This document shows positions 17,112-37,159 of a stretch of DNA of 64,000 bases, piece after piece. The position numbers and the translations under genes are program-made. Position 1 is the first letter of the stretch. Every line of letters starts with the position of its first letter. This DNA is from Arthrobacter sp. MYb214 (lineage in GTDB: Bacteria > Actinomycetota > Actinomycetes > Actinomycetales > Micrococcaceae): contig NZ_PCPZ01000001.1 of the NCBI RefSeq assembly GCF_002979865.1, positions 496,001 to 560,000 of the forward strand. The letters run 5' to 3'. The notes beneath the pieces were generated by a model that made no database searches, was not told the DNA's origin, and saw only the letters and a list, made by a program, of their open reading frames with translations.

Positions 17112-17117
17112 TAATCT
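17112..17117 (+). promoter_or_regulatory. -10 box 7 nt before lipoprotein start
   Basis: TAATCT followed by 7 nt and then the ATG, with no clear ribosome-binding site. This spacing would give a leaderless mRNA. No good -35 is visible. Confidence 0.45.
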
Positions 17118-17124
17118 GTGAAGT

Positions 17125-17547
17125 ATGCGCATCAAGCACCTCGCCCTCCTGGCCCTGTCAGCACTAGCACTCGTCAGTTGCGGTACTGCGGAACAGTCCC
17201 AAAACGTGGCAGCTACTCCGAGTGAGACAGCGGCCACGGCGAGCGCTGAGAGTGTGAGCGGTGCTTCTGATGGTGATCCGGAGTTGTTTGTGAAGAGCAT
17301 CAATTTCCGGTGGATTGGTGAGCAGCAGTTCTCCGAGACGGAACTCATCGATGCTGGGCGTGACGCGTGCGAACAGATGCGCGACGGAGTTGATTCTCTC
17401 GAAACCAAGTCGGGGCTTGAAGGTGTCAGCGATGAGAATGAACATGCGATTGCCGTCGCTGCGAAGGACGGATTCTGTGCCGAGCTTCAGCATGAGGCGC
17501 TAGCTCCTTCTGAATTGCCAGAGCGTATTAAGCCCAATACTGATTAG
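17125..17547 (+). CDS. Lipoprotein cargo gene (DUF732-like)
   Basis: A 140-residue protein with a signal peptide and lipobox (LALVSC, acylated Cys19). A Thr/Ser/Ala-rich linker (about 22-55) leads to a small secreted domain with two cysteines (DACEQMRDG and DGFCAELQHE), likely one disulfide. The size and DACEQ-type pattern recall DUF732 proteins of actinobacteria. It lies alone on the plus strand within the minus-strand tail operon and shares its last 4 bases with the opposing stop. The placement suits expression in the lysogen. Phage lipoproteins of this kind often block superinfection, but that is inference. Confidence 0.75.
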   Translation: MRIKHLALLALSALALVSCGTAEQSQNVAATPSETAATASAESVSGASDGDPELFVKSINFRWIGEQQFSETELIDAGRDACEQMRDGVDSLETKSGLEGVSDENEHAIAVAAKDGFCAELQHEALAPSELPERIKPNTD

Positions 17548-18413
17548 AGGGCGACCATTAGCTGTTTGGTCGTGCTATTCCAGTAAACATTCGCGACCGC
17601 GCCACTTGGAGCGCTAGCCATTTCGCCCACAGATAGCTCTTTTGAGATGTCCAGGTTTCCGATTGCTGCAATGGTGTCACCGCTTGACTGCACGGACACT
17701 TTGGATCCTTGCATCACCCAGTCACCTGCATCGTCTACGGCCATGATTGCCCCGGTAGGTCCGGCCCCGATCGACGCTGTATTCAAGCCCGCGGTGAAAC
17801 CTATACCTGATGCTGAGGACTTCACCTGCACCGTGCCGGCCACCGAAGTAACCCTCGAACCGTCCTGGAACGAGATCGACCCGCCGTCGGCAGAGGGGGT
17901 CAAGGTCATGTTCGTGCCGACGTTGATCTCACCGCCCTCTTCGACGTTCACATCGTTACGCACAGTCAGCACACCATCGGCGTCGATGCCGAGCGTTCCG
18001 AAATCCGCTGACCCATCAGGGTTGAGTTTGAACTGGCCAGCTTCCAACGTGCCATCCGGCGAGATGTCCAAACCTCCGAATTGAGCCGATCCGTCAGGAT
18101 TGATGATCGAATCGCCCGCCTTGAACTGGCCACCGGCGACGATCTCAAAATCACCGGCTACTGTCGTCGGGCCGTTCATCTCCGTCGTGCCGTTGAAAAT
18201 ATTCTCACCGTTGGAGATCAGCCGACCAGTGATGAATGCGGTACCAGTGACTTCAAGGCCACCATTCTCGATCCGGATCCAACCGCCGTCATAGACACGC
18301 AGGCCCTTGCGGCCAATCGCAGAACCGTTCTGCGGGGTAGCGTAGCGCTGTGCCCGGATCTGCTTCGGGATTGATTTCAGATTGCTCTTGGCAAGATTGC
18401 GTTTCTTCGTCAC
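17544..18413 (-). CDS. Tail protein with glycine-rich beta repeats
   Basis: A 289-residue protein with a basic start (MTKKRNLAKSNLKSIPKQIRAQRY). A series of short repeats follows, such as FNGTTEMNGPTTVAGDFEI, INPDGSAQFGGLDISPDG and LNPDGSADFGTLGIDADG, which would fold as a beta-helix or prism. This is a typical minor tail or fibre-shaft protein. It lies between the Gp37-like baseplate gene and the distal fibre genes, and its 3' end meets the plus-strand lipoprotein gene with a 4-nt overlap of stops. Confidence 0.75.
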   Translation of the reverse strand: MTKKRNLAKSNLKSIPKQIRAQRYATPQNGSAIGRKGLRVYDGGWIRIENGGLEVTGTAFITGRLISNGENIFNGTTEMNGPTTVAGDFEIVAGGQFKAGDSIINPDGSAQFGGLDISPDGTLEAGQFKLNPDGSADFGTLGIDADGVLTVRNDVNVEEGGEINVGTNMTLTPSADGGSISFQDGSRVTSVAGTVQVKSSASGIGFTAGLNTASIGAGPTGAIMAVDDAGDWVMQGSKVSVQSSGDTIAAIGNLDISKELSVGEMASAPSGAVANVYWNSTTKQLMVAL

Positions 18414-18425
18414 ACCAACCCCCGT

Positions 18426-19487
18426 CTAGAAGTCCTGGAACTCAAGCTTCACCGTGTCCGACAAATCTCCCGAATACTGGATCACCCGCATCACGTGATG
18501 GCCATCCACAATCATCGGGTCACCATGCGAGTACAAATCGAACTGGCGTCCAAGCTTCACCATCGTCACCCGGAAAGCATCCGACGCGTTCATGCTCGCC
18601 GACCACTGCTCTACTGGGCCTGAAGCAACATCAGCTTCAGCCCATGTCCGGTCATACAGCATGTTCCCGTCCTTCTCCTTCGGGAACGACGCATCCTTCA
18701 CCAAATGCGGGTACGGCGAACCACCGATTGATGCGACCTGGTACTCAAGATCCTGCTCCGAACCTTCACCCGTTCCGATCACCACCGTGGCGACTTCAGT
18801 CGCGTCCCTCTTGATTTTCAGGCCGTGGATCATCTTGTGATTCGCAGACAAGTTCACTGGGATCAGGCCACTCACTTCGACACCGTTGTAGATGAGCCAC
18901 TCCAGCTTCGTTCCGTCAGTGGACCAGCGGGGCACCATCGCGATATCCGGTCCGCCATCTGCGTCCATGAGCGTTTCCAGCTCGTCGGCGACCATCGGCA
19001 GCTCGTACCCATACCAGGTACGCGAGCGAGTGCCACCAGTAGTTCCCTGCATGAAGATCGGCAATGAGTAAGCGCCGGCAGTGCCAGCCTCGATGACGCC
19101 ACGGACCATGTCCCACAACGATGCTGACGCGATCGTGAATTTCTTCTTCATCAGATCCGTATACGTGGTGAACAGCATCCGTTTAGCGAGCAACGACCAC
19201 AGATCAGAATGATTCACTGTGAGCCGCTTCGTGTCGTAGTCGTAATCCCAGGACCAGATCACGCCCGCATATACCGCTGATCCCTCCCATTCAATAACCA
19301 GTGTCCTGCGCACTACGTCTAGCAGGCCCCACCAGTCCAGCCCTTTCGACGTTGCTGCATTGAGCACCGCCGAAGCGGTACCGCCGGAGCCGCCGTTGAG
19401 TGCACAGGTCCAGGTGAATCCAGTAACCGGGATGACCGACTGTTTCTGCCCTGTGCGGGTGTCTACGCTCCAAACGCGCCAAGCCAT
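18426..19487 (-). CDS. Baseplate / minor tail protein (Gp37-like)
   Basis: A 353-residue protein starting MAWRVWSVDTRTGQKQ. It is rich in beta-strand and Trp, with the hub-like feature VWSWDYDYDTKRLTVNHSDLWSLLAKR near residue 80-110 and a C-terminal VDGHHVMRVIQYSGDLSDTV. It follows the distal-tail gene by 10 nt. In actinophages this position is held by the baseplate or tail-tip protein equivalent to siphovirus Gp37. It probably joins the tail tube to fibres. The assignment is by order and general character. Confidence 0.75.
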   Translation of the reverse strand: MAWRVWSVDTRTGQKQSVIPVTGFTWTCALNGGSGGTASAVLNAATSKGLDWWGLLDVVRRTLVIEWEGSAVYAGVIWSWDYDYDTKRLTVNHSDLWSLLAKRMLFTTYTDLMKKKFTIASASLWDMVRGVIEAGTAGAYSLPIFMQGTTGGTRSRTWYGYELPMVADELETLMDADGGPDIAMVPRWSTDGTKLEWLIYNGVEVSGLIPVNLSANHKMIHGLKIKRDATEVATVVIGTGEGSEQDLEYQVASIGGSPYPHLVKDASFPKEKDGNMLYDRTWAEADVASGPVEQWSASMNASDAFRVTMVKLGRQFDLYSHGDPMIVDGHHVMRVIQYSGDLSDTVKLEFQDF

Positions 19488-19496
19488 GAGACCGCC

Positions 19497-20246
19497 TTAG
19501 AAATAGGTGTCGTACAGTTCGATCCGGCCACCCTTGGACAAGGTCACCGGAACCTTTCCGCCCGGAGGGATCGTAAAGGTTTGCGCGTCGCCGACCAATC
19601 CGCCCCCGGCCGCCATGGACAGATTGACGCGGAGCATCCCATCCCACATATCCACATGGTGTGTGGATGAAGATCCGGGAGAAGCAGTCACCGTGTATTT
19701 TTCACCGTTCGGACCAGTGATGGTGTATCCGCCCACTGTGACTGGGCCAGGCACCACGACGACAGGCCAGGCCGGAGCCGACCCGCGGTTCTCCACCATG
19801 GCCGCCACACCAGCACCAGCCGTGACAATCCGTCGCTCGCCAAAGATCCTGGGATCAGTGGAACGCAAACTAATCTGGAATGAGGTGTGCACATCCGTTA
19901 CTGGGACAGCTTTGGTCTGCCGGGCCAGCATGACGTTCGCCCACTGATCAGGTCCATGACCAAAAACTTGGAGGGTTTTGATTTCCCCAGGCATGATGCA
20001 ACCTTTCAGCGCGTTGATCGCCTCATGCTGGTGTGAATGAGTTTTCGAGCGTACACGTCCCGTGATGGTGATCAGGCGCTCCCGGTAGAACTCAGGGAGG
20101 ACATACCCGCCGTGTCCGTATGGCACGTCCTCCCTGTTTTCCTTGACGTCAGGGGTATCCCACCAGCCGTCGACCGAGTTGACTTTCCATTCATGGGCGT
20201 GGGTATCGCCGGTGAGCGTTTGCACGCCAAGCTTTACGAGGTTCAT
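19497..20246 (-). CDS. Distal tail (Dit-like) protein
   Basis: A 249-residue protein that begins MNLVKLGVQTLTG. The early blocks VDGWWDTPDVKENREDVPYGHGG and ERLITITGRVRSK fit the N-terminal domain of phage distal tail proteins, and the C-terminus is beta-rich. The ATG at 20246 is preferred over a GTG two codons upstream because GGCGGTGAG lies just before it. It follows the tape measure gene by 9 nt, where Dit proteins always lie. It would form the hub between tail tube and baseplate. Confidence 0.82.
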   Translation of the reverse strand: MNLVKLGVQTLTGDTHAHEWKVNSVDGWWDTPDVKENREDVPYGHGGYVLPEFYRERLITITGRVRSKTHSHQHEAINALKGCIMPGEIKTLQVFGHGPDQWANVMLARQTKAVPVTDVHTSFQISLRSTDPRIFGERRIVTAGAGVAAMVENRGSAPAWPVVVVPGPVTVGGYTITGPNGEKYTVTASPGSSSTHHVDMWDGMLRVNLSMAAGGGLVGDAQTFTIPPGGKVPVTLSKGGRIELYDTYF

Positions 20247-20255
20247 ACTCACCGC

Positions 20256-23200
20256 CTAACTGCGAAATTGGTTCTCAAAGAAGAACTTCAACTCGTCGGA
20301 CAATTCACGGCGGACAGCATTAGCGTCCGTCGCACCATATATCGGGATGTTCAGGGTTACTGTTGTCCCCCCACTGCCCACCGATGATGGGTTGCCACTC
20401 GCCCGTCCCCCGCTGGCGAAGCTGGCGAGGTGCTGTACGGATGGGTCGTCGGCGTTAATTGCTCCAAGTACTCGGTTGTACTTGTTGGCTGACGATTTGC
20501 GGATGATCCACTCTTCGTCGTCCACGTTCGCAATCGGGCGGCCCTCGGACGTTACTCCGAGGATCATGTCCCGTCCAAGACCGGTACGTGGGAGCTTCCC
20601 GCCGTCCTCGTAGCCAGGCAAACTGATTTGCCCGCCGCGATAGTTGCCGGTCAGCCCGCCTGTACCGCCACGATGCACCGCTGATGCGCCCGAGTCAGTG
20701 AATCGGGTGCTTACTGCGATGGTGGCGAAGCGTGTGCGTGCCGCGTTCTTCAGTGCTTCTTCTGCGGCGCCGGTGATCGCTTGCGCGTTGATCTTCGCGA
20801 CCCGCTTCTTAGCCGCGGTCTCGTCGATCTTCTTACCGGTTTCGTCGGTGCCGGTTTCCGACACTTCGATACGACCATCAGGCAGTTCGGTAACGATGTA
20901 CCCGAGGGTTTCCAACGCCGAACGCACTTCAGGCGAGTTCTCCGTGATGGTTACGTTGCCCTCCGGAGTGGACTGCACCAACTCGTGAATCTCAGTGATC
21001 TTCCCCGCCAACGAATCAGTGTTGGAGTTGAACTGCACGTACACGCTGCCAGGTATCAGGCCCAGCTGGTCTGCGTAGGCTGCAGCTGCTTCCTTGCTGT
21101 AGCCCATCGCAGTCGCCTGCTTGATGAAGTTCTCCCGGCCGTGCGCGAGCTCTTCGGACATCTCAGCGGTGGTCGCACCGGCTTCACGCATCGGGTCAAT
21201 GACCGCCAGCGTACTGGATGCGATACCGTCGAGCGCCGACGAACTCGCAAGGTACTTCTCTGAGGTCCGGTCGAACGCTTCACCGTTCTTGTCGACGACC
21301 TCACCGTTTTCCTTAATGGTCTTCGTTGCCGAGTTGATCGATTCCTGCAGTCGCCGGATCGCTTCGTTCTCACCAATGATGACCATGCCAGAATTGACCA
21401 GCGAGTCGTACCATTCGTCGACAGCATCGGCCGCTTCTTCCGCCGCCTTAGCCGCGTTCTCATAAGCGGTGGCCATGCCATCGATACTGTCTTTCGCACC
21501 CGGTGCTTCAGCCTTTACGCGCCCAAGGGCGATACCAACTAACCCAAGCTCATCGTTCGGATCGAGCTGTATGCCGTTCTCGGTCGCAAGGTTAGTGAGC
21601 GCCGACTTGAGCTCGGGGGTGCTGTTGATCAGGGTTGCCATTTCCTGATCGGTAAATTCGAGCTGTTCAGCAAGACCCTTGAGCGAATCAATACCCAAGT
21701 CCGACTCGCCCATGTCGAAAGCACGCGCAATACCACGAGCCGCTTCCTGCAATTGCAGAGCGTCCTCGGTAGCGCCACGCACGTCTCCCACAGACAGGTT
21801 CTTAGAAAACCATCCGGTTAGTCCGGTCAGTCCGCTAGTGTTATCAAGTTGCTCGATAGCGCGCTTCGCGTTACCAGCCTCTACGGAGACAGTACCGAAG
21901 TGTTCCTTAGCTAGATCGCCGGAGTTCTTGAAAACTGATCCGGACCAGCCATCGTCCTCGCCGAGGTTCAGGGCTCCACGGAGGTCTCCGCCTGTGGCGA
22001 GAATGTTGAAGTACTCTTCAAGATCGGGGCGGCCAGAGCGAGCCTCGGTGTTGATCGCCTCAATAAGCTCTTTGCCTATGAGCAGTCCGGCGCCAACGGT
22101 GGTAATTCCGCCGATAGCTTTTCCTACGCCACGAGCACGGGTTTCAAGCTGAGTCATCGGGCCTTCTGCGCGCTGTGTGGCAGCACGAAGGTCCCTAAGT
22201 CCAGTGACAGTGGAGACGATGTTTGGTGCGATCTTCATGAAGGCGCCCGCAACCAGCGCGCCAACACCGATGAATCCAGTGAGTATGGTTAGCGCAGTCT
22301 GTGCTGGTTCCGGCAGGTCCGTGTACCAGCCAACGAGATCGGCGATGCCTTCTGCCAGTCCGGCAATGACAGGTAGCAGGGCGGCTCCCGCGTCGATTCC
22401 TGCGTCCTTGATGTTGTTCCAAGCGACTTTGACCTTGGATTCAGCGGTGGCGTAGCGTTGAGCGGCTTCGTCGGCCAACGCCGAGTTTTCCTCCCACGCC
22501 TTGGACCCGAGCTCCAAGGACTCGGTAAGCAGGTCGCCGGAGTTCGCCAAGGCGAGCATGACCTGCATTTCCTCGGTGCCCTTGATGCCCATGTCCTTCA
22601 ATGTGGCTGTCAGGTTTCCGCCAGCGTCGTTGGTGCGGGCGATGCCTTCGGCAACGTCCTGCAGGGCTTCCATTGGGGAGCTGCTGAACTTGGAAGCGAA
22701 TTCCTCGGCTGAGGTGCCTGCTACGCCTGCGAATGCTTCGAGGGATTCTCCGCTTTCGTCGACTGCGGTGCGCATTTTCAGCAGGACACGGGTGGCGACA
22801 CCGCCACCGAGCTCTGAACGCACGCCCATGGATGCCAGGGTGTTAGACAGCGCCAGCACGTCAGCTTCGGAAGCGCCCAATGATGCGGCGGCGCCAGCGA
22901 TGCGTTGGGCCATGGACAGGATTTCTGCTTCAGTGGATGCACCATCGTTACCCAGTGCTACCAGTGCGGAGCCGAAGCGTTCCACGCCTTGCGCGCCTTC
23001 GCGTTCCATGGTGCCCATGACGTTGGAGATCTGCGCAATGTTCGTGGCAGCGTCTTCCGCGGTCAGGTTGGTGGTTTCGCCGAGGTCGATCATGGTGGCG
23101 GTGAAGCCTAGAACGTCGTCGCGGGCTACGCCCAGCTGGCCGGCGGCCTCGGCCACGCCTGCGATCTCAGCGTGCGTTGACGGTAGTTCCTTGGCTAGGT

Positions 23201-23540
23201 CGCGTAGACCGTCGGAGAGCTCTGCGTAGCCTTCTTCGGTGTCGTCGATGGTCTTGCGGACACCAGCGAATTGGGACTGCCAGTCCATGGCTGCTTTGGC
23301 TGACAGGACAAGCCCGCCGGTGATGGCGGTACCGGCGCCGACCATGGTGTTGGCGACTTGGCCCCACGCTTTTTCGTGCTGGTTCGCTACGTCTGTCAGG
23401 CGGCCTATGCCGGACTGGGATTGTGTGCCCGCGTCTTCGGTCTTTTTGGCGGTTTCCTTGGCTTTTGCGGAAACCCGGTCCATGTCCTTGATGAACGCAC
23501 CGATTTCGGCGCTAACAAGAACTCTCAGCTTTTTGTCCAC
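20256..23540 (-). CDS. Tape measure protein
   Basis: The largest gene of the window, 1094 residues. The N-terminal third contains a TP901-type core (AKAAMDWQSQFAGVRKTIDD, LGETTNLTAEDAATNIAQIS, DVLALSNTLASMGVRSELGGG). A hydrophobic pair of segments lies at about 375-430 (LLPVIAGLAEGIADLVGWY, ALTILTGFIGVGALVAGAF), followed by long alanine/glutamate-rich helices (AYENAAKAAEEAADAVDEW). The protein sets tail length and is ejected into the host. Its length predicts a tail of roughly 160 nm by the usual 0.15 nm per residue. It follows the tail chaperone pair. Confidence 0.95.
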   Translation of the reverse strand: MDKKLRVLVSAEIGAFIKDMDRVSAKAKETAKKTEDAGTQSQSGIGRLTDVANQHEKAWGQVANTMVGAGTAITGGLVLSAKAAMDWQSQFAGVRKTIDDTEEGYAELSDGLRDLAKELPSTHAEIAGVAEAAGQLGVARDDVLGFTATMIDLGETTNLTAEDAATNIAQISNVMGTMEREGAQGVERFGSALVALGNDGASTEAEILSMAQRIAGAAASLGASEADVLALSNTLASMGVRSELGGGVATRVLLKMRTAVDESGESLEAFAGVAGTSAEEFASKFSSSPMEALQDVAEGIARTNDAGGNLTATLKDMGIKGTEEMQVMLALANSGDLLTESLELGSKAWEENSALADEAAQRYATAESKVKVAWNNIKDAGIDAGAALLPVIAGLAEGIADLVGWYTDLPEPAQTALTILTGFIGVGALVAGAFMKIAPNIVSTVTGLRDLRAATQRAEGPMTQLETRARGVGKAIGGITTVGAGLLIGKELIEAINTEARSGRPDLEEYFNILATGGDLRGALNLGEDDGWSGSVFKNSGDLAKEHFGTVSVEAGNAKRAIEQLDNTSGLTGLTGWFSKNLSVGDVRGATEDALQLQEAARGIARAFDMGESDLGIDSLKGLAEQLEFTDQEMATLINSTPELKSALTNLATENGIQLDPNDELGLVGIALGRVKAEAPGAKDSIDGMATAYENAAKAAEEAADAVDEWYDSLVNSGMVIIGENEAIRRLQESINSATKTIKENGEVVDKNGEAFDRTSEKYLASSSALDGIASSTLAVIDPMREAGATTAEMSEELAHGRENFIKQATAMGYSKEAAAAYADQLGLIPGSVYVQFNSNTDSLAGKITEIHELVQSTPEGNVTITENSPEVRSALETLGYIVTELPDGRIEVSETGTDETGKKIDETAAKKRVAKINAQAITGAAEEALKNAARTRFATIAVSTRFTDSGASAVHRGGTGGLTGNYRGGQISLPGYEDGGKLPRTGLGRDMILGVTSEGRPIANVDDEEWIIRKSSANKYNRVLGAINADDPSVQHLASFASGGRASGNPSSVGSGGTTVTLNIPIYGATDANAVRRELSDELKFFFENQFRS

Positions 23541-23563
23541 CGCTGGGCACCGCCTTTATTTAG

Positions 23564-23920
23564 TTATCCGTCAAGATGGGTGTCTTTCAGGTGGAGTTTC
23601 TGGCCCGGCCATGTGGTGCGGTTCTTGTTGGACGTGAATGTTTCCAACGCTTCGCAGCCGTGGCACATGGTGTCGTCGTGCACTTCGAACCGTCCGACGT
23701 TGTCGTCCCCGCGGGTGATGTGCGCGGGTAGGCCGCAGCCGGAGCAGATCGTTTTCAGGTATTTCGTGTATGCGATCTGCATGATTTTGTCTTGGTCGCA
23801 GTACGTCCCGTCGTCTTCCCGTACGCCCAGGAGCACGGTGACGGGGATGCGGCAGTCCCGCGCTGTTTCCACCAGGTCGAGCAGGTGGGCCCAGCGCGGG
23901 GTTCCGAGGGCTTCTACGAT
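23564..23920 (-). CDS. Tail assembly chaperone, frameshifted C-terminal part
   Basis: This part is read only after a -1 shift at the end of the upstream chaperone gene. The 0-frame coding reads GTC-CCA-AAA; after slipping back one base it continues ATC-GTA-GAA and runs 118 codons to the stop at 23564. The extension begins IVEALGTPRWAHLLDLVETARD and contains a zinc-ribbon-like pair, CSGCG and CHGCE. The fused G-T protein (about 334 residues) would act with the shorter form to assemble the tail tube around the tape measure protein. It has no ribosome site of its own near the internal GTG at 23872. Confidence 0.82.
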   Translation of the reverse strand: MVEALGTPRWAHLLDLVETARDCRIPVTVLLGVREDDGTYCDQDKIMQIAYTKYLKTICSGCGLPAHITRGDDNVGRFEVHDDTMCHGCEALETFTSNKNRTTWPGQKLHLKDTHLDG

Positions 23921-24567
23921 TTTGGGACGGTCACCTCGGGGATGTCCTGGGTGGCGCGTGCGTTCGCGTCGGCAAGCAACCGCATTTGTGCTTCGCCGAG
24001 CTTTTCGTAGAGGGTGCGGGCCTGCTCTAGGTCTAGGCTGACCAGTTGCCCCTTGTTCATGAGTGTGGTGGATGCTGCGATGATGCGGAGCCGAGACTCA
24101 CGCTCAATGAATTTCCGAGTGAACTCGTTGACGTTCAATCGAACTAGGGCGTTTACGTCGGCCGGGGTCTTCACTTCCATGCGCGCTGCGGTCTTGCGGG
24201 CTTCGTTTTTGCCCAGCTCTGCTTGCTTGTCGATTTCCTCGGAGCACTCGGTGAGGACGGTTTCGCGGATGCCGGCAATTTCAGCGTCGGTGAGTGAGGT
24301 GACTCGGAAGATCCTCTTCGACGCATGGATGCGCATTTTCAGTTCATCAATCTCAGCGTCGATTGCGGCGTTCGGGTCACTGTTCCCGCCGAGGGCTTCG
24401 TCGCCCTCGGGGACTTCTTCCACGGGCTGTTTCTGTGCTTCGAGTGCGTCGATTTCGGCGATCAGGTCGAAGCGTGCGTACAGGTTGACGTTATGGACGG
24501 TGCGTTCGCCCATGGCCAGCCACTCGTCGAGGTCTAGCTCGCTGTTTGGTGCAATGTTTTCGGACAT
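23914..24567 (-). CDS. Tail assembly chaperone, short form
   Basis: A 217-residue, highly charged helical protein (DLDEWLAMGERTVHNVNLYARFDL, then LYEKLGEAQMRLLADANARATQ). It lies between the tail tube and tape measure genes, the fixed place of the siphovirus chaperone. It ends PEVTVPKS, and its last codons hold the slippery heptamer that allows a second, longer product. The start at 24567 is set by AGGAG upstream. The chaperone binds the tape measure protein and is absent from the virion. Confidence 0.85.
   Translation of the reverse strand: MSENIAPNSELDLDEWLAMGERTVHNVNLYARFDLIAEIDALEAQKQPVEEVPEGDEALGGNSDPNAAIDAEIDELKMRIHASKRIFRVTSLTDAEIAGIRETVLTECSEEIDKQAELGKNEARKTAARMEVKTPADVNALVRLNVNEFTRKFIERESRLRIIAASTTLMNKGQLVSLDLEQARTLYEKLGEAQMRLLADANARATQDIPEVTVPKS
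23920..23926 (-). promoter_or_regulatory. -1 ribosomal slippery site CCCAAAA
   Basis: On the minus strand the heptamer reads C-CCA-AAA in the 0 frame, a perfect X-XXY-YYZ site, two codons before the stop of the short chaperone. The -1 frame stays open for 118 codons. This is the standard G/GT arrangement of long-tailed phages. Confidence 0.85.
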
Positions 24568-24593
24568 GATGATTGACTCCTAAAGGATGGGTG

Positions 24594-24812
24594 TTACTTG
24601 ACTTGCAGGGTGTAGCATCGGCGGTCGAAGCCTTCGAACGCTTCGTTGAGGATCCGGGCACCGTTCTCGTCGCGCACGTATTCAATGACACGGACACGAT
24701 CTGCTGTCATGTTGATTGACACCGTGTTTTCGGGCTTCAGCCCCAACGCTTCAACAGTTGCTTTCAGCTGGTCGCGGGACACCGTGCCCTCATAGTGGCG
24801 TTTCTCGGCCAT
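24594..24812 (-). CDS. Small phage protein, 72 aa, after tail tube
   Basis: Starts MAEKRHYEGTVSRDQLKATVEALG. The helix-strand pattern (NTVSINMTADRVRVIEYVRDENG) suggests a small alpha/beta fold. It lies between the tail tube gene and the chaperone gene. It has its own ribosome site (TTAGGAGTC). No family is recognised. Confidence 0.68.
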   Translation of the reverse strand: MAEKRHYEGTVSRDQLKATVEALGLKPENTVSINMTADRVRVIEYVRDENGARILNEAFEGFDRRCYTLQVK

Positions 24813-24853
24813 GGTTGACTCCTAATGTTTGTGGTGACCCCAGAAAGGTTTAG

Positions 24854-24894
24854 AGTCCGGGCAGGAGCGGGAGTCAAGCACCCCTACCCGGACT
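24854..24894 (-). terminator. Hairpin after the tail tube gene
   Basis: Stem AGTCCGGG / CCCGGACT (8 bp) enclosing a GC-rich loop that can pair further. It follows the tail tube stop and may keep the abundant tube mRNA level above the genes downstream. T-tract weak. Confidence 0.45.
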
Positions 24895-24903
24895 GGTCTT
24901 TGG

Positions 24904-25422: not shown

Positions 25423-25424
25423 AG

Positions 25425-25643: not shown

Positions 25644-25655
25644 GGTGGGCCTCCT

Positions 25656-26443: not shown

Positions 26444-26462
26444 GACGCCTCCCCTCGCTGGG

Positions 26463-28607: not shown

Positions 28608-28625
28608 GGTGTGTGACTTCCTTTC

Positions 28626-28976: not shown

Positions 28977-28979
28977 GGT

Positions 28980-30173: not shown

Positions 30174-30186
30174 CTGGTGGATCTCC

Positions 30187-30192
30187 TAAACT
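30187..30192 (+). promoter_or_regulatory. -10 box 7 nt before small zinc protein gene
   Basis: TAAACT followed by GGTGTCC and then the ATG at 30200; no ribosome site is visible, so a leaderless mRNA is likely if the gene is expressed. Confidence 0.45.
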
Positions 30193-30199
30193 GGTGTCC

Positions 30200-30367
30200 A
30201 TGAGTGCTGACGACGCGAATGACACCCCGGGCGAGCCGGGCGCTTGCCCTGGCCATGAGTGGAAGGTGGGACGCGTTTTCTTGCGTCCTACGGGTGGTTC
30301 CATGTCTGTGGTGTGCAAGTGGTGCGAGACTGTCGAGTACTGGCCGTCAGCCAGCGACGGCACCTAG
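30200..30367 (+). CDS. Small zinc-knuckle-like protein, 55 aa (cargo gene)
   Basis: The protein reads MSADDANDTPGEPGACPGHE, then WKVGRVFLRPTGGSMSVVCK and WCETVEYW. The CPGH and CKWC pairs would bind one zinc. It lies on the plus strand between the protease and MuF genes, 26 bp from the divergent start, and its last 21 nt overlap the end of the MuF gene. Its coding character and conserved-looking cysteines argue against chance. The function is unknown. Confidence 0.55.
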   Translation: MSADDANDTPGEPGACPGHEWKVGRVFLRPTGGSMSVVCKWCETVEYWPSASDGT

Positions 30368-31405
30368 CAGGTCTTTCACCGGTGTTTGGATGTAGGAGTC
30401 GCGCCAGCCGTCTGCGGTGCGGAGGGTTGCGAGGTCTTCCCAGCCGATCTTGCCGTCGTTGAGCAGCTGCATCCTGGTGGGGCCCATGATCGATAGTTTC
30501 GAGTCGTCGGTCAGCCCGTCGTACCAAGCTCGGGCGTCGGGGAACGCGTCGGCTGGTTCTTCAATGTTGAACCCGAGCTCTTTCCACGACTTGGTGATGT
30601 CGATGCGTGCGCAGCGCCCATTCTGGTGATCCTCTGGGCCGAAGTCATCAACCGGGTACAGGGTGCCGTGCTTGGACAGGCAGGATGGGCAGGTGCGCCG
30701 GTCCAGGGTGCATTGCCATTTCCAGCCGGTCAGCAGGTCTTTGTTCTGCTTCGCGGAGGTGAGCGACCCGTTCCGGTGGGCATCGAGCATTTCAGTGCGT
30801 GCGATCCGTGTAGCCCGGGCTAGTCCACCGTTGAAGTGTCCCTCGGTTGCGCGGATCAGTTTGCGGGCAACCTCGCGGGGGTTGTCCCCCACGACGATGC
30901 CGCGGACCAACTCTTTACGCATCGCAGCGGCCACCCAGCCGGCCAGTGGCCGTGTTGCCGAGTGGATCTGCTGGGTTGTGCGCAAAACGATCGCATCTAA
31001 CGCGTCCGGTGCTGGTGCGTCCAGCTCCAAACCGACGCCAGCCGCTTGTGGCGGCAGTTGGGAGCGCAGGACTGCTTCATGCGATTGCACCGCGTCCAGC
31101 ACTGCATCAGCCAAACTGTTCTCGATGACTTCGTTAGCGCCCCGGGTGAGTTCATTCAGCACGGTGCGCGCTTGCCTAAGCGCTGCCTGCAGTTTCCGGT
31201 TGCGTGCGACTACTGCACGGGGCAACCGGTCAGGAGCGCCCTGCAGCAAGTCCAGCAACGCTTCGTTGAACAACGGGGTGAGCGTATCCCAGGCATCTAC
31301 CCAAGCCTTGGTGAGTGCGACGGCTTGCTCGTCGGTCATCCGTTGGAGGCGACGGCGGGTGTCGGCGGCTATCAGCAGGGTTTCATCTGTGACAGCCACC
31401 GACAA
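30347..31405 (-). CDS. Minor capsid protein, MuF-like
   Basis: A 352-residue protein. The N-terminal half is helical (LTKAWVDAWDTLTPLFNEALLDL). The C-terminal half holds the MuF head-morphogenesis signature ARTEMLDAHRNGSL, then CTLDRRTCPSCLSKHG and DHQNGRCARIDI with its Cys/His set. It follows the portal gene by 7 nt, as usual. MuF proteins sit in the capsid near the portal and are ejected with DNA. No toxin domain is fused at the C-terminus. Confidence 0.88.
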   Translation of the reverse strand: MSVAVTDETLLIAADTRRRLQRMTDEQAVALTKAWVDAWDTLTPLFNEALLDLLQGAPDRLPRAVVARNRKLQAALRQARTVLNELTRGANEVIENSLADAVLDAVQSHEAVLRSQLPPQAAGVGLELDAPAPDALDAIVLRTTQQIHSATRPLAGWVAAAMRKELVRGIVVGDNPREVARKLIRATEGHFNGGLARATRIARTEMLDAHRNGSLTSAKQNKDLLTGWKWQCTLDRRTCPSCLSKHGTLYPVDDFGPEDHQNGRCARIDITKSWKELGFNIEEPADAFPDARAWYDGLTDDSKLSIMGPTRMQLLNDGKIGWEDLATLRTADGWRDSYIQTPVKDLLGAVAG

Positions 31406-31412
31406 TCACCGC

Positions 31413-32945
31413 CTATTCTTGTCCAGCCCGGTACGCGTCAGCCGCGGCCTGCCCGGCCGCCACGAGAGGGTCGAGGAAGTTGCCTTCCTCGTCGATCATC
31501 TCTTCCAGCCACTCGTCAACGTCACGCACGCCCAGGGCGCGCATGATCATCTCAGCCAACAGCAGTGGCGGGATGTGCCCGTCGGCCTTCTCCAAAGCGT
31601 CCATCATGGTTTTCGGATCAACCTTGGTGATGTCCGGGAACGCGATGGTGAGCGTCCGGTCGTCTTCTTTGGTGAGCACCGTTTGGAGCCGGTCGCCGTC
31701 ACGCACCGTCCTGCCTTGGCCACGCAGCACACCACGCGGGGCGATGACTGCCTGGTCGATGACGTAGCCGAGGATCTGCCGGCGCGCTTCACGCCAAACC
31801 TCTTGGCGACCTTGCATCGTCAGCGTGGTCGGGAAGTCCAACGTCTCCGCCACGGCACGGGCACCGGTCTGGCCGGGATCCGCCAGCAACATGGTCACTG
31901 GAATGCCCAACGCGGTGGCGACCATGGCTGCCAGTGGTTTCGCAGAGTCAGAGTCGATGGTGGCGCCGGTCTTCGGGACCGCTTCGAGTTTCGTATCATC
32001 GGTGGCGTTCACACCACCACCAGGTGCCATGCCGGCAACCTTTTCCAGCTCACGACGACCAGCCGCCGCGGTACGCTTCCCGCCCTTGCCGACGCGCTGC
32101 CAAACGATCTTGGACAAGGCGTTCATCATGATCGCCCACGCTTCAAGGAACTCCTTGTACCCGCGGGCCCACGGCAGCGCGGCGAATGCGTCGCCGATGC
32201 CGTATTGCCAGCCGGTGAGGGCGTTGACCTTGATGTGGTAGATCGGTGCATCCCAGATGATGTCGTGGCCGACACTGTTCGGGGTGGCCCCGTATCGGCG
32301 TTGGCGCATCTGCGGGCGGTAGTCGTACCGAGGGTGGTACGTGGTGACCTCTTGCTCTATGCCGGATGCGTCGCGTCGGTTCCAGACCCGCTTGTAGTAG
32401 CGGACAGACAGGGAATCTTCCGGGTCGGTGATCTGCTCTTGGATTTCCTCGAACGGGATCACACGGGGCTTCACACGTCCGGTAAGTGGGTTGGTGAACA
32501 GTGCGAAGAACACGTTGCCATCAGTGCCCAAAGCGAGTTCGTTGCGTGCCTGTGCTTCGGATCCGGCGAACACTTCCCGTACTTCCGGGTCATCCAACCA
32601 AGTCTGCACGAGGTCGTTCACGCGTTCACCGGTAGCTGTGGTGCCAACGCCCTGCCCGAAAACGTACGCTGCACGCAGTTCCAGGCCACGCTTGATCAGC
32701 GGGTTAGCGATCGCATACACACGGCACAGCTCAGCATTGCGGCGGCGCGCCTCCGGCGTGAGTTCGCGTTGCCCGTCCTGCAGGATCCGTTCCCAACCAG
32801 CATCTTCACGAGCCAATGACAGCTGGGCCATGGACTCAGTCAAGGTTTCTAGCTTGTGCTCCAACGAGGACACGGTGCCTACAGGGACGCGCTCGGTTGT
32901 GTCAGCTTCGGCTAGTGGCGCCCAATCTTCGAGGTTCAGATCCAC
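31413..32945 (-). CDS. Portal protein
   Basis: A 510-residue protein. It has RRNAELCRVYAIANPLIKRGLELRA near residue 60-90, then NELALGTDGNVFFALFTN and GVNALTGWQYGIGDAFAALPW. An extended C-terminal helical region follows (SDSAKPLAAMVATALGIPV, LLLAEMIMRALGVRDVDEW). This is the portal of actinophages with the MuF neighbour. It forms the ring through which DNA enters and leaves. It lies between terminase and MuF. Confidence 0.9.
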   Translation of the reverse strand: MDLNLEDWAPLAEADTTERVPVGTVSSLEHKLETLTESMAQLSLAREDAGWERILQDGQRELTPEARRRNAELCRVYAIANPLIKRGLELRAAYVFGQGVGTTATGERVNDLVQTWLDDPEVREVFAGSEAQARNELALGTDGNVFFALFTNPLTGRVKPRVIPFEEIQEQITDPEDSLSVRYYKRVWNRRDASGIEQEVTTYHPRYDYRPQMRQRRYGATPNSVGHDIIWDAPIYHIKVNALTGWQYGIGDAFAALPWARGYKEFLEAWAIMMNALSKIVWQRVGKGGKRTAAAGRRELEKVAGMAPGGGVNATDDTKLEAVPKTGATIDSDSAKPLAAMVATALGIPVTMLLADPGQTGARAVAETLDFPTTLTMQGRQEVWREARRQILGYVIDQAVIAPRGVLRGQGRTVRDGDRLQTVLTKEDDRTLTIAFPDITKVDPKTMMDALEKADGHIPPLLLAEMIMRALGVRDVDEWLEEMIDEEGNFLDPLVAAGQAAADAYRAGQE

Positions 32946-32960
32946 ACGGCACCACCATTC

Positions 32961-34505
32961 CTAGTAGGGCGACAGATAGTATCCATCGCTTTCGAGTTGG
33001 TCATATTCATCCGGCTGCACAATGTCATCCCCCAGCCCGTCGATTCGGTGCAGGAGCAACTGATTCACTGCTTGGGACATGGTGTCCAGCTGGTCATCGT
33101 TGGCGCCTGCAGGGAAGGACAGGGCTTCTTGGGTGAAGTGTTCCACCCAAGGACACAAGCTGGTTGCTGGGAGCACGATGTTCTTGGAGAACGCCAACGG
33201 GCTGACAGCTGACACGCGAGCGTATTTCGAACCGACTGGTTCGACTGGGATCAGCCCGATCACTGTTTTCTGCAGGGCGTTCATGACCGCGGGGCCGTTG
33301 GCTTTGTCTTCAACGAGTTTCGCGGTAGCTTCCGGCCACTTCGCTGTCATGGTTTCGATAGCGTCGCACGTCTCGTTGAAGTTCATCCGCCGGCGGACTT
33401 GGTCGAGCAGGTAGGCGACGTTGCCGACGCGTAACCAGATTTGGCCTACAACGTAGTCGCTGGTGTTCTCGCCCTTGAAAGCGAGGTCCCAAGACTGTAT
33501 GAGCTCGTGGTCGTCACGGTCGATGCCGGGCACTGTGTGCCGGCCGTCTGCGTGTTCGATCCACATTGGTTGTTCGTAGCGGGCCCACTCAGTTGGCAGT
33601 ACGCCGCCGTCATCCAGTGTCGGGTTGCCCTGGTAGAGGGACTGCCACACTTTAGGACCGACAGACACCTTGATCTGTTCCCACTGGTGCGGTGTGCGCT
33701 GGCGTGCTGATTCGAGCCACTCGCCGGGTTTACGGTCTAGTGGGTCGTTCTCCACGGCTTCGGCAGGAATGTTGAGTACGGTCCAACGGTCAGCGTCTTC
33801 ACCGGCGAGCAGGCGGCCGGCTAGGTCGTCAGCGTGCCAACGAGTTAGCACGAGGATTACTGGTGCGCCGGGGGCGAGTCGGGTGATGCCGACTGACTGC
33901 CAGAACCCCCATGCTTGTTCGCGGTAGGTTTTCGAGTAGGCCTGCTCAAGGTTGCTGATGGGGTCGTCAATGAACAGAGCGTCCACGGCGCGACCGGTAA
34001 GGCCACCGCGGATACCAACTGACCGGACACCGCCCTTTACGGGTACTTGCTTTGTCACGCCCTTGTCGTCGGTAACGCTGCGCGTGCCGTCAAGTTTCCA
34101 ACGTCGTGCTGCACCGTTGTCTTTGGCGACGCGTAGGCCGAGGTCGAGGGTTTCGTCGTCACCGTCGTTGCTGATGATGTGGTTGCGGATGTTGCGGCCG
34201 AACTCGTCTGCGAGGTCTTGGGCGTAGGAGACGATGGCGATGCGTCGGTCCGGGTTCTTGGTGAGGAACCAGAGCGGGCCGATGGTCGTAACCCGGGTGG
34301 ACTTGCCTTCCTGGGGCGGCAGGTTGATGATCAGACGATCAATCTCCCCCGCCTCAACCTTGACCAGGTACTCGTCAATCAGATCCAGCGCCGGGGTCTG
34401 CAGCGTCGTTGGTTCGATAGCCTTCGCCAGCTGGCCGGGGGTCCCCCAGTCATGCTCGGGAACTTCGAATGCGCGGGCCGCGTACTCCGCCCAATCCAAT
34501 AGCAC
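32961..34505 (-). CDS. Terminase large subunit
   Basis: A 514-residue packaging motor. The ATPase has Walker A LPPQEGKST (62-70) and Walker B ALFIDDP (176-182). The nuclease begins at about 340 with IQSWDLAFKGE and holds KLVEDKANGP and DDQLDTMSQA acidic residues. The GTG at 34505 opens the protein (MLLDWAEYAA). The start lies only 22 bp from that of a divergent plus-strand membrane gene. The small subunit gene is not adjacent but about 3 kb upstream, with a tRNA and cargo genes in between. Confidence 0.95.
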   Translation of the reverse strand: MLLDWAEYAARAFEVPEHDWGTPGQLAKAIEPTTLQTPALDLIDEYLVKVEAGEIDRLIINLPPQEGKSTRVTTIGPLWFLTKNPDRRIAIVSYAQDLADEFGRNIRNHIISNDGDDETLDLGLRVAKDNGAARRWKLDGTRSVTDDKGVTKQVPVKGGVRSVGIRGGLTGRAVDALFIDDPISNLEQAYSKTYREQAWGFWQSVGITRLAPGAPVILVLTRWHADDLAGRLLAGEDADRWTVLNIPAEAVENDPLDRKPGEWLESARQRTPHQWEQIKVSVGPKVWQSLYQGNPTLDDGGVLPTEWARYEQPMWIEHADGRHTVPGIDRDDHELIQSWDLAFKGENTSDYVVGQIWLRVGNVAYLLDQVRRRMNFNETCDAIETMTAKWPEATAKLVEDKANGPAVMNALQKTVIGLIPVEPVGSKYARVSAVSPLAFSKNIVLPATSLCPWVEHFTQEALSFPAGANDDQLDTMSQAVNQLLLHRIDGLGDDIVQPDEYDQLESDGYYLSPY

Positions 34506-34515
34506 GCTAACCGCC

Positions 34516-34521
34516 TAAGAT
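34516..34521 (+). promoter_or_regulatory. -10 box 6 nt before membrane cargo gene
   Basis: TAAGAT followed by ACGAAT and then the GTG at 34528; no ribosome site. The -35 region would lie within the first codons of the terminase gene on the other strand. Confidence 0.5.
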
Positions 34522-34527
34522 ACGAAT

Positions 34528-35148
34528 GTGAAGAAATTGAATATCAAGAAATGGCTTGAAGACAAAACAAGCCGTAGATCTGCAGGAGCTCTCGTAGCTT
34601 GTTTGGCAATTGCGCTTGGAATGCTGCTACTCGCCATAGCGTTGATCCGCTTTATAGTTGAGCAGCGAGGAATCGGCCTCATCGCCCCTGCTGCAACGAT
34701 AATCGCGACAGGCCTTGCCTCGTTTGCCGCAATTATAGGCATCGAGACCTGGGCCGAAAAACATGATGAGGATCGGCAGAGAGCGGAGTATAAGAATCGC
34801 GAAGAAGTCTATGGCGAAATGGCGCAAATAATGCTCTCCAGATTTCCTAACTCGGACGATGACGCAACACCGTACGATAAAAAACGAGATCGCGAGCTGA
34901 GGGCAATTGCCGCATTGTGGGCAAGTTCCGAAGTCATCAATACTCTTGGCTGTTGGCAAGCCCAGCTATCAGAAATTATGAAAGCGCATCAAGTCACTTC
35001 AGGAAGCATTGCGCTAACTGAACATCAACAGACATTGATCAGACGCCGATTCGGAGACTGTGTCGCTGCCATGCGACGCGATCTTTCCTCCGGCAATGGT
35101 CAGGCTGTGTCGTCCGAGGCGATACTCGCATCAATTTTCAACAGTTAA
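34528..35148 (+). CDS. Two-helix membrane protein, 206 aa (cargo gene)
   Basis: A protein with a lysine-rich start (MKKLNIKKWLEDKTSRRS) and two membrane helices at about 20-42 and 50-72 (LACLAIALGMLLLAIALI-type, then APAATIIATGLASFAAIIGI). A cytosolic helical domain of about 130 residues follows (TWAEKHDEDRQRAEYKNREEVYG, IAALWASSEVINTLGCWQAQLSE). Codon use is more AT-rich than in the structural genes, which suggests late acquisition. It lies head-on to the packaging operon. Topology resembles small membrane exclusion or defence proteins, but no family is recognised. Confidence 0.7.
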   Translation: MKKLNIKKWLEDKTSRRSAGALVACLAIALGMLLLAIALIRFIVEQRGIGLIAPAATIIATGLASFAAIIGIETWAEKHDEDRQRAEYKNREEVYGEMAQIMLSRFPNSDDDATPYDKKRDRELRAIAALWASSEVINTLGCWQAQLSEIMKAHQVTSGSIALTEHQQTLIRRRFGDCVAAMRRDLSSGNGQAVSSEAILASIFNS

Positions 35149-35354
35149 AAAGCCCAGTTTTCAGTTAATCATCTCATTGACGGCGGTCTTTTTGTCCGCG
35201 GTGTGCGCCTCGCGTAGCGGGTCGCATGTGTGTTGTGTCGGCTTGTTGGCCGCCGTCAAGTTTGGTGGGGCAGGTTGGCCTCGGGCTGTTGAAGACTAGG
35301 TTTCCCTACTCGCAGCCTTCATGGGCGCCTTCACACATTGGTGTGTTTACCCCT

Positions 35355-35427
35355 CGTGCGACTGGCAGGACTCGAACCTGCGATTCACGGCCCTCACGCC
35401 GTGGGCTCATGCCACCGAGCTACAGTC
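35355..35427 (-). tRNA. Phage tRNA with unusual anticodon loop (anticodon uncertain)
   Basis: Clear class I cloverleaf: 7-bp acceptor GCGACTG/CAGTCGC, 4-bp D stem GCTC/GAGC with an 8-nt loop, and T arm GCAGG-TTCGAGT-CCTGC. The anticodon arm is CACGGC/GCCGTG around a 6-nt loop GTGAGG (35390-35395); opening the last pair gives an 8-nt loop. Neither is the normal seven. If T33 is the T of that loop, the anticodon reads GAG (Leu CTC), but this body lacks the long variable arm of tRNA-Leu. No CCA is encoded. Confidence 0.82.
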
Positions 35428-35679
35428 GCTCCCCCCGGGCTCGTGCACCTGGGGGCTATTCAGTTATTGATGCCGAAGCTGGCGCGGGTCTTGGTGTCAG
35501 ATCGAACAGGATCAGTATTCGTCTCACTCGCCACGGTATCGGTTTGCAGCAGATTCCAGCTTGGGCACCGGTTTTGCCCAACTTTGGGGGTATGGGCAAA
35601 TCTTCGGGTTCTCACACTGCTCCGATCTTGATTTCATCCTAGGGACAAAACTGCGATAAATCAACTTCTGGTTGGTATT
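35428..35679. other. Non-coding stretch upstream of the phage tRNA
   Basis: About 250 bp with no credible gene. A GC-rich hairpin (CCCCCGG/CCTGGGGG, about 35430-35453) stands directly before the tRNA 5' end. Open frames here on both strands are short, lack ribosome sites and run through the tRNA. Confidence 0.5.
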
Positions 35680-36477
35680 TCACCGCTTACTAAGCGGTAT
35701 GGATTGAAAAACAATGAGAACATCGGCTGGCGAGTGGCCCTCCTGTCGTGATTTGAGGTCGCATCGTGGGTGGAGCTTGCCTCGTTGAGCCCATTTCTTA
35801 GCGCGTTCGTACTTGATTGGGTAGCCGGCATCGTTCAACGCTCGGACGACCACGCTCAGTGGTGCGATGTGGTGCCATGCTTGGGCGAATCTGTCGGTGA
35901 TGCGTTGGGTGAGGTCGTGTTCTCGGTGGCATTCCCGGCAGCGGCCCGTGGTGGCTGTTTCGTGGCCTTCAACGACACCCGCGCATCGGGTGATGACGTT
36001 GGTGGCGTCGTCCATGAGCAGTGCCCCGCACTCCCCGAGTGGGCGTTTCTGGATGGGCCGGTCAGCTGCTGAGATGACGCGCCGTTCAAGGTCGCGTAGC
36101 TCTAGGTAGATGTCGGCGACGAACTCGCGTTTGCGGAGGTGGTGTGCCATGGCGCGCAGGTATTCGGCAGCGTGGAACGTGGTGGTGAAGATCCGCAGGT
36201 GCTTTGGTTCCTCGCGCCCGTTCACCCAATGCGCGAGCTCGGTCAACCGACGCTCGTATTCACCGAGACGTTCAGCCATGTCCAGGTTCAACGGTGCTCC
36301 AGGCGCCGACGTACCGGCGGACCCGACCCGGGGCTGCACACCCTGATTCGCCAACGTCGCCGCCGCGGTCCGCAACGTCGCAGGCACACGATCCAAAACC
36401 GCCCTCAGCCTCGTGTCGCAATGATTGCAAAGGCACAAACCCTCAACAGTCGTGTACTCACAAACTAGGCAGGTCAT
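35680..36477 (-). CDS. Zinc-finger protein with C-terminal HTH-like region
   Basis: A 265-residue protein starting MTCLVCEYTTVEGLCLCNHCD, which has two CxxC knuckles. A helical middle follows (ERLGEYERRLTELAHWVNG), then a second cluster with CGALLMDD, CAGVVEG and CRECHREHD. The last 70 residues look like a winged HTH or MerR-like DNA reader (LNDAGYPIKYERAKKWAQRGKLHP). AAGGAG lies before the ATG at 36477. It overlaps the preceding membrane gene by 20 nt. It is probably a regulator or late-gene activator; this is inference from the DNA-binding look and place before the late genes. Confidence 0.72.
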   Translation of the reverse strand: MTCLVCEYTTVEGLCLCNHCDTRLRAVLDRVPATLRTAAATLANQGVQPRVGSAGTSAPGAPLNLDMAERLGEYERRLTELAHWVNGREEPKHLRIFTTTFHAAEYLRAMAHHLRKREFVADIYLELRDLERRVISAADRPIQKRPLGECGALLMDDATNVITRCAGVVEGHETATTGRCRECHREHDLTQRITDRFAQAWHHIAPLSVVVRALNDAGYPIKYERAKKWAQRGKLHPRCDLKSRQEGHSPADVLIVFQSIPLSKR

Positions 36478-37147
36478 GCTTCTCCTTGGTGAACTGAACG
36501 TTTCGCGCACTTTCTATGAGTTGAAGCGCAAATTCTTCCGCTATCTCGCCTCGATGCAGACGCATGGTGGCCACACGAATAATCTGTTCCGCCTGTGTCG
36601 TGCGTCCTACTGATTCGACAACCTTCCAGAAACCTTCGTCGTCTTCCTCGCCATTTTCTCCGATTTCGATTGCAGCGTCCATTAGCTCATAAGTATAAAT
36701 AACCTCATTTTCAATGAACGAGATTGTTTTGTCTAAGCTGCCAGCTCTGAATAGTTGGTCATAAGAAATAGCCCATATTTCCGCTTTGAACCGGGCTTCA
36801 CTTGCCGCGGAACGCAGCTTGGCTTCGTCCACCACCTTGGAGTCAACGGCCACTAAAGCATGCAGTGCCGTCAAGAACTCAGTAAGTGCAGGTAGCCGTT
36901 GCTGCTCGACGGCAATAGTCCTGGTTAGATCTATTTGGTCATTAGCGGTCCGCCACGCTTTCCACGCGTACCGCGCCACAAATATCGTGATCAGCATGGC
37001 CCCGAATGCCCCAATTGCGCCGATAGCAATCCACATTAGTTCGAGTCCCTTAGCGGAGTCGATGAGGCTGGTTGAACAGTTGATCAGTTCGACTTTGGCC
37101 GCGTTCGGATCAGCTATTTGGCACGTTATTTCATCAGCGAGAATCAT
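36458..37147 (-). CDS. Single-helix membrane protein, 229 aa
   Basis: A protein with a short N-terminal part, one membrane helix at about 38-60 (WIAIGAIGAFGAMLITIFVARY) and a cytosolic helical domain (AVEQQRLPALTEFLTALHALV, AEIWAISYDQLFRAGSLDKT). TAGAAT stands six bases before the ATG with no ribosome site, the same pattern as the plus-strand cargo genes. Its architecture echoes the membrane protein encoded beyond the tRNA at 34528. The 3' end overlaps the zinc-finger gene by 20 nt. No family is recognised. Confidence 0.68.
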   Translation of the reverse strand: MILADEITCQIADPNAAKVELINCSTSLIDSAKGLELMWIAIGAIGAFGAMLITIFVARYAWKAWRTANDQIDLTRTIAVEQQRLPALTEFLTALHALVAVDSKVVDEAKLRSAASEARFKAEIWAISYDQLFRAGSLDKTISFIENEVIYTYELMDAAIEIGENGEEDDEGFWKVVESVGRTTQAEQIIRVATMRLHRGEIAEEFALQLIESARNVQFTKEKHDLPSL

Positions 37148-37153
37148 GCTCTT

Positions 37154-37159
37154 ATTCTA
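37154..37159 (-). promoter_or_regulatory. -10 box 6 nt before membrane gene
   Basis: On the minus strand TAGAAT, then AAGAGC, then the ATG at 37147. This fits a leaderless promoter and overlaps the end of the upstream gene. Confidence 0.45.

Follow-up and report, generated by a model that had tools for sequence, protein, structure and literature searches.

Boxed head-on genes in the late operon of an Arthrobacter prophage are predicted to be leaderless

Introduction

Genes without a leader are nothing new in actinobacteria, where they are well known. In bacteria such genes carry a TANNNT hexamer around 12 bp ahead of the start codon, and many of them are found in Actinobacteria (PMC3160421). 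The leaderless genes of Mycobacterium tuberculosis have TANNNT without a -35 motif (PMC3898074), those of Corynebacterium glutamicum start with AUG or GUG only (PMC3890552), and in mycobacteria a 5' ATG or GTG is necessary and sufficient for leaderless translation (PMC4633059). The genes in the last three reports are host genes, studied by 5'-end mapping or with reporters, whereas the genes described here are predicted and are phage genes facing a late operon. They were found in a 64-kb window, by which is meant the whole stretch of DNA that was analysed (positions 496,001 to 560,000 of contig NZ_PCPZ01000001.1), of the genome of Arthrobacter sp. MYb214, which comprises 3.72 Mb in 19 contigs. 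A prophage is estimated to span roughly 6.9 to 53 kb of this window. Four of the genes that lie head-on within its late operon, and one membrane protein gene that runs with the operon, have a -10-like TANNNT box 6-7 nucleotides (nt) before the start codon. In this they are the same as the published leaderless, or 'TA-led', actinobacterial genes, which show about 12 bp from the first T of TANNNT to the start, no -35 element, no ribosome site and ATG or GTG as start codon.

Morons are single genes that lie between the virion genes of temperate phages, are absent from some relatives and are presumably expressed from the prophage. The genes described here resemble them in being single head-on genes between phage genes, in the absence of such a gene between the minor-head and protease genes of phages Montesquieu and LuckyBarnes, and in the varying content of the slot beside the terminase gene. 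Unlike morons, they show no terminator and no leader and have a start-to-start gap of 22-31 nt, and several of them share a 4-bp double stop with the neighbouring gene at the 3' end. The cluster O mycobacteriophages offer another parallel, since their structural operon contains an oppositely oriented gene (Corndog gene 53) that is predicted to be leaderless and to be served by promoter PL2 (PMC4351075). That case is a single predicted promoter in phages for which no integrase or stable lysogens are reported, whereas the present genes belong to several families, one of them with 32 members, and occupy several slots in Micrococcaceae phages that bear an integrase. Gene 90 of phage Adephagia is likewise relatively well expressed in the lysogen from a predicted leaderless transcript (PMC11373665), but it is a HicB-like antitoxin gene outside the structural operon (genes 6-29). 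In the open-licence literature we found neither a conserved set of such genes in multiple slots nor a 5'-end map of an Arthrobacter-type phage.

Results

On the sequence patterns described below, we consider it likely that the boxed head-on genes and the co-directional membrane protein gene are leaderless, with a promoter box fused to the start codon, and that they are used in the lysogen. The first head-on gene (17125-17547, plus strand) encodes a putative lipoprotein of 140 amino acids (aa) with a lipobox-like Cys seen by eye; its box TAATCT (17112-17117, plus) is followed after 7 nt by ATG at 17125. The second (26475-26669, plus) encodes a small membrane protein of 64 aa which has homologues, with a nonsynonymous substitution rate (dN) well below the synonymous rate (dS); TAAGGT (26463-26468, plus), with AAGG inside the box, precedes its ATG at 26475 by 6 nt. 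The third (30200-30367, plus) encodes a 55-aa protein with CxxH...CxxC, zinc-ribbon-like by motif, and TAAACT (30187-30192, plus) stands 7 nt before ATG at 30200. The fourth (34528-35148, plus) encodes a 206-aa membrane protein in the terminase-side slot and has TAAGAT (34516-34521, plus) 6 nt before GTG at 34528. The fifth gene (36458-37147, minus strand) encodes a 229-aa protein with an N-terminal membrane segment judged by eye; TAGAAT (37159-37154, minus) lies 6 nt before its ATG at 37147, and the preceding gene, 37157-37420, has the TAG of this box as its stop codon. The original prediction, which had named these five boxes with their spacings, proved exact in all of them on direct reading. 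Its membrane gene at 37147 does have the box at 6 nt, but the gene is not head-on. A distance of 22-31 bp to the divergent phage gene had also been claimed for the four head-on genes, and start-to-start gaps of 30 nt (17125), 31 nt (26475), 26 nt (30200) and 22 nt (34528) were found.

All five genes start with ATG or GTG, never TTG. No ribosome site was seen for 30200 and 34528; weak candidates are GAAG for 17125, AAGAG for 37147 and the AAGG within the 26475 box. Of the head-on genes that precede the immunity region in the prophage gene list, which was partly edited by hand (5 genes added and 4 calls removed), 4 of 7 are boxed at 6-7 nt; among minus-strand genes the count is 2 of 55 (Fisher p = 0.0009). 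Finding 4 or more boxed genes in 7 has a binomial probability of 3e-7 for a 1% background, 0.0013 for the overall host rate and 0.007 for the rate in host operon-first genes.

The same signature was looked for in the host. Forty stretches of 20 kb (800 kb of chromosome) were sampled, 637 genes were called with a codon-usage script, and TANNNT was tabulated by its distance to the start codon at spacings of 0-37 nt. It was found that 52 of the 637 genes have the hexamer at 6 or 7 nt (30 at 6, 22 at 7), whereas each of the remaining 36 spacings accounts for 3.6 genes on average (range 0-12). The first half of the sample already showed this, with a box in 32 of 308 genes. A ribosome site, by our own score, was present in 4 of the 52 boxed genes compared to 278 of the 585 others, and the boxed genes start with ATG (40) or GTG (12) and never with TTG, which starts 37 of the other 585. 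A convincing -35 element was seen neither in the prophage genes nor in the host set. TANNNT at 6-7 nt is evidently the leaderless signature of this host, and it matches that of published leaderless genes. A smaller host peak of TANNNT was also observed at 33 nt (12 genes) and 34 nt (8 genes), which fits leaders of about 26-27 nt. The 89 divergent host pairs are all at least 41 nt apart, and the sole pair at 41-61 nt is boxed on both sides; at least one box is present in 2 of 6 pairs at 62-100 nt, 6 of 13 at 101-150 nt, 8 of 26 at 151-250 nt and 8 of 43 at 251-2000 nt. As far as the gene caller sees, the divergent phage genes are packed tighter than any of the 89 host pairs.

Homologues of the 30200 gene provide the largest sample. 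Relatives are present in 22 viral contigs, of which 21 are complete (one being the same prophage), and TANNNT stands at 6-7 nt in all 21. A hidden Markov model (HMM) built from 20 sequences and run on the collected loci, which are designated here by L numbers, gave 32 non-duplicate genes with a start, including that of the window. The set omits the truncated L059, repeat copies, HMM matches with E above 0.01 (L100, L110, L091 and L082) and a 27-residue partial match in L150 that has no box. All 32 genes have TANNNT at 6-8 nt (25 at 6, 6 at 7 and 1 at 8 nt), with 12 different hexamers of which TAGAAT (13), TAAACT (3), TATAAT (3) and TATGCT (3) are the commonest, and they start with ATG or GTG only. 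The sources of the members include Glutamicibacter phage BIM BV-113, the Arthrobacter phages Kukla and TripleJ, and genomes of Pseudarthrobacter, Paenarthrobacter and Arthrobacter; in addition, a Paeniglutamicibacter stretch (L147) matches viral contig L049 along all of the 6 kb compared. In annotated phages the gene lies between the minor-head gene (unnamed in Kukla) and the protease gene. In 15 of 15 pairs dN is well below dS, with dN/dS of about 0.1-0.3 where dS could be estimated, and judged by this constraint 30200 evidently encodes a real protein. Residues D4 and N7 are invariant in the family alignment (A4), which favours the start used here over the later start annotated for Kukla gp4. 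A fold search with the zinc-motif protein gave nothing significant, the query being a low-confidence beta-hairpin model.

The box is also kept in two smaller groups. Five related 26475-family proteins, 38-94% identical, have TAAGGT at 6 nt (window), TAGGAT at 7 nt (BV-113 and L065), TAGGGT at 7 nt (L050) and TAGGGT at 8 nt (L066). The BV-113 member is missing from the record of that phage, whose gp10 annotation extends backwards across it. The 26475 frame was considered as a false open reading frame (ORF) opposite a longer gp10, and this was rejected on two grounds: in the window the extension annotated in BV-113 is interrupted by a stop and by a change of frame, and conservation is seen in the head-on frame, its dN being lower than dS. 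Coding constraint is thus shown for two gene families, 30200 and 26475. The membrane gene at 37147 has its box at 6 nt in 3 of 3 homologues, namely TAGAAT (window), TAAGAT (BV-113) and TAGAAT (L062). It had been proposed to check whether the box-to-start distance is kept in homologous prophages while the flanks vary. The distance is kept in 32 of 32 genes of the 30200 family, 5 of 5 of the 26475 family and 3 of 3 of the membrane gene, and in L062 the membrane-gene box stays at 6 nt despite a different flank. The conserved distance, together with the ATG/GTG starts of the 30200 family, supports the leaderless reading that had been suggested from the window.

The terminase-side slot shows a different pattern. 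A boxed head-on gene was identified in 5 of 20 terminase 5' flanks, the others being looked at in part. Beside the 206-aa membrane protein of the window (TAAGAT at 6 nt), L040 has a protein 33% identical to it (9310-9945, TAGAAT at 6 nt), L045 a 92-aa protein (TAGGAT at 6 nt), L048 a 100-aa protein (TAGGGT at 6 nt) and BV-113 an unannotated 71-aa protein (TATATT at 6 nt), the last known from a look at ORFs selected by box. Except for window and L040 no pair of slot proteins is similar above chance, which makes four protein types in five phages. The idea of a resident slot promoter behind which genes are swapped was rejected, since the flanks differ and the box is not at a constant distance from the terminase start. 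In L041/L069 a 284-aa head-on gene near the terminase gene has the ribosome-site-like GGGGAG.

As the first look at slot genes had selected ORFs by box, a box-blind survey of gaps was run on 50 of 58 portal-containing related loci, 8 being dropped on gene-call quality. TANNNT was found at 6-8 nt in 28 of 85 head-on gap ORFs, many of which are wrong frames, as against 0-10 in other three-base windows. The slot cases of the window, L040, L045 and L048 were all retrieved. The 28 matches include 15 of the 30200 family, 4 of the 26475 family and 4 of the terminase-side slot.

Discussion

The proposed mechanism is as follows. The housekeeping RNA polymerase would recognise the TANNNT box, transcription would start 6-7 nt past it, with the A or G of the start codon as its first base, and ribosomes would initiate on the 5'-terminal AUG or GUG without a ribosome site. 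With promoter and start codon fused, the whole expression unit would fit into 22-31 nt, a space that it would share with the ribosome site and the start of the divergent phage gene. So compact a unit would allow single genes to sit backwards in the late operon and to be active in the lysogen, where the operon itself is silent. The 5' end is thus expected at the start codon, with expression in the lysogen and shut-off by late transcription after induction. By this means a dormant virus would keep a few genes active in unusually little space.

A number of observations weigh against this reading. Three of the seven head-on genes of the prophage (10116, 38872 and 42885) have no box, so that the claim of a box shared by the head-on genes stands for the other four (17125, 26475, 30200 and 34528). 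A promoter scan of 16800-36000 gave 2 sigma-70-like sites compared to 5.2 expected, and one of the two, CTGCCA-16-AATAAT, overlaps the 17125 box. In the 30200 family the start of L076 was chosen with the box in view, the other 31 being aligned to residue 1, and the absence of any change at the T, A and T of the box is largely by construction, because the rows were aligned on it. The weak HMM matches L100 (E 0.011), L091 (E 0.035) and L082 (E 0.17) are without box; a further weak match, L110 (E 0.016), has TACGGT at 7 nt. The boxes of L066/L068 and L080 sit at 8 nt, the box of TripleJ gp17 (TAACTT) is at 5 nt and Kukla gp16 is without one. In the box-blind survey the other 5 of 62 ORFs (L091, L105, L114, L119 and L124) are at about the chance level, with a background of about 4 of 85 per three-base window; the rule is therefore shown for three gene groups and not for head-on genes at large.

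Among other explanations, the one that survives best is that the motif is a weak ribosome site, with AGG as the core of TAGGNT or TAAGGT, and that transcription starts upstream, inside the divergent phage gene. All five 26475-family boxes (TAAGGT, TAGGAT twice and TAGGGT twice, at 6-8 nt) hold AGG or AAGG 7-9 nt before the ATG, so this family could be leadered, and the slot boxes of L045 (TAGGAT) and L048 (TAGGGT) point the same way. However, AGG is absent from the commonest boxes of the 30200 family and from those of 17125, 34528, 37147 and 51482, the conserved box positions in the 30200 family are T1, A2 and T6, and boxed host genes mostly have no ribosome site. As a general account it is improbable.

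Still less probable, to the point of deserving little credence, is that the match is forced by neighbouring signals, that is, by the complement of the divergent ribosome site (30200 and 34528) or by the preceding stop codon (37147). The overlaps are real: the first T of the 30200 box falls in the complement of the ribosome site of the divergent gene in most relatives, as CTCCT|A, that of the 34528 box is part of the complement of AGGCGG, the sequence ahead of the terminase gene, and in the window, BV-113 and L062 alike the T-A of the membrane-gene box belongs also to the TAG or TAA with which the preceding gene stops. Yet T6 lies outside both constraints and is kept in every case, L060, L105 and L124 retain the box without CTCC, and the 17125 and 26475 boxes overlap no neighbour signal. 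That the boxes are chance matches picked by eye can practically be dismissed: scans of antisense ORFs do yield chance boxes in structural operons (5 in Montesquieu, 2 in LuckyBarnes), but the host peak is specific to the spacing and the spacing is conserved in homologues.

We return to the leaderless reading. The original prediction had seen the boxed genes as cargo that could be inserted with almost no regulatory DNA. This fits the terminase-side slot, where dissimilar genes each bring their own box, but not 30200, which is no recent cargo but a resident found widely among related temperate phages. The distribution among annotated phages can be set beside this. The closest annotated relative of the prophage is BV-113 (53% of a 25-kb query matched at 81% identity), a kinship by which the host would probably be a Glutamicibacter-like member of Micrococcaceae. 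BV-113, TripleJ and Kukla all bear an integrase and all carry head-on genes, two each in TripleJ and Kukla, which also have repressor-like genes; the sample of phages compared is small. Montesquieu and LuckyBarnes have head-gene sequence in common with the prophage. In their records (whole for Montesquieu, 66 of 67 features for LuckyBarnes) there is no integrase, and no head-on gene is annotated in the structural operon of either; in both, the minor-head gene adjoins the protease gene, with 1 bp between them or an overlap. These two phages are probably virulent.

The 3' ends of the head-on genes are equally tight. The stop codons of genes 10116, 17125 and 26475 overlap those of the convergent late genes in a 4-bp double stop (CTAA, TTAG or CTAG), which is TTAG at 17544-17547 for 17125 and CTAG at 26666-26669 for 26475, each shared with a minus-strand gene, and both head-on genes of TripleJ and of Kukla likewise end in one. 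The 30200 gene overlaps its convergent gene by 21 nt and 34528 shows no overlap. Between 16800 and 36000 there are 15 terminator-like sites as against 18.3 expected from shuffled sequence, none of them right after 17125, 26475 or 30200; one (35059-35080) lies within the 3' part of 34528. As no terminator stands out, head-on transcripts may run on antisense to the late genes. Head-on transcription could perhaps provide a switch that is on in the lysogen only. A wider proposal, which we find rather doubtful, is that temperate phages of Micrococcaceae keep exchangeable late-operon slots for zero-leader head-on genes and that the head-on layout is itself the switch: the lysogen promoter would run the gene, with unterminated antisense RNA covering the late genes, and induction would overrun the promoter and silence the gene, no repressor site being needed at any slot. 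The layout allows a direct test of head-on transcription as a switch between lysis and lysogeny.

The products could perhaps be playing a role in changes of the host surface or in defence, and if expressed in lysogens the head-on genes would be candidates for lysogenic conversion or defence genes. No match to PADLOC defence models was found at E 0.1 among ten proteins. The 17125 protein matches DUF732 weakly, below cut-off, and phrog_658 with E 1.1e-7; no homologue of it was found in phage records, and matches are present in 5 of 295 family genomes, namely the window's own and four weak ones. The membrane proteins 34528 and 36458 show no homology to each other. The finding also points to phage genes that annotators overlook or mis-start. 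Three head-on genes of BV-113 (L002; 15868-16059, 19572-19739 and 23905-24120) are unannotated; the first two lie under the annotations of gp10 and the protease, which are extended backwards on the opposite strand.

Other features of the window can be summarised briefly. Of the head-on genes without box, 10116-11693 (plus) has a gap of 18 nt and an uncertain start codon; it lies in a stretch of lower GC, is fitted in between late genes and has weak matches to NAD synthase and Asn synthase, below cut-off. The gene at 38872-39132 (plus) encodes a transglycosylase-associated membrane protein (Pfam E 5.3e-10) and has a gap of 118 nt and a strong ribosome site; an L069 gene has the same N-terminus as its product. 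The gene at 42885-43115 (plus) has a gap of 60 nt and a ribosome site. The gene at 6482-6631 (minus) also carries a TANNNT box. So does an IrrE/ImmA-type metallopeptidase gene (51482-51871, plus; Pfam Peptidase_M78, E 3.8e-9), with TATCTT 7 nt before its ATG, as in BV-113. The integrase gene lies at 51853-52947 (Pfam Phage_integrase). In L110 a HicA-type toxin gene (7923-8132, minus; Pfam E 5.6e-9) has TAGACT 6 nt before its ATG, with a start-to-start gap of 185 nt.

Between the 34528 gene and a tRNA-like gene (35356-35429, minus), to which ARAGORN assigned no anticodon, 178 bp (35177-35353) are 95% identical to BV-113 compared to about 80% over the head region. Sequence similar to this segment lies near the terminase gene in L050, with TTGACGGCGG...CGCCGCCGTCA, and the segment is perhaps a cos or packaging site. 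The late operon also codes for a protein with a SASA carbohydrate esterase domain (12304-14346, Pfam E 3.1e-32), and a C-5 cytosine DNA methylase gene is present at 43341-44906 (Pfam E 2.6e-24).

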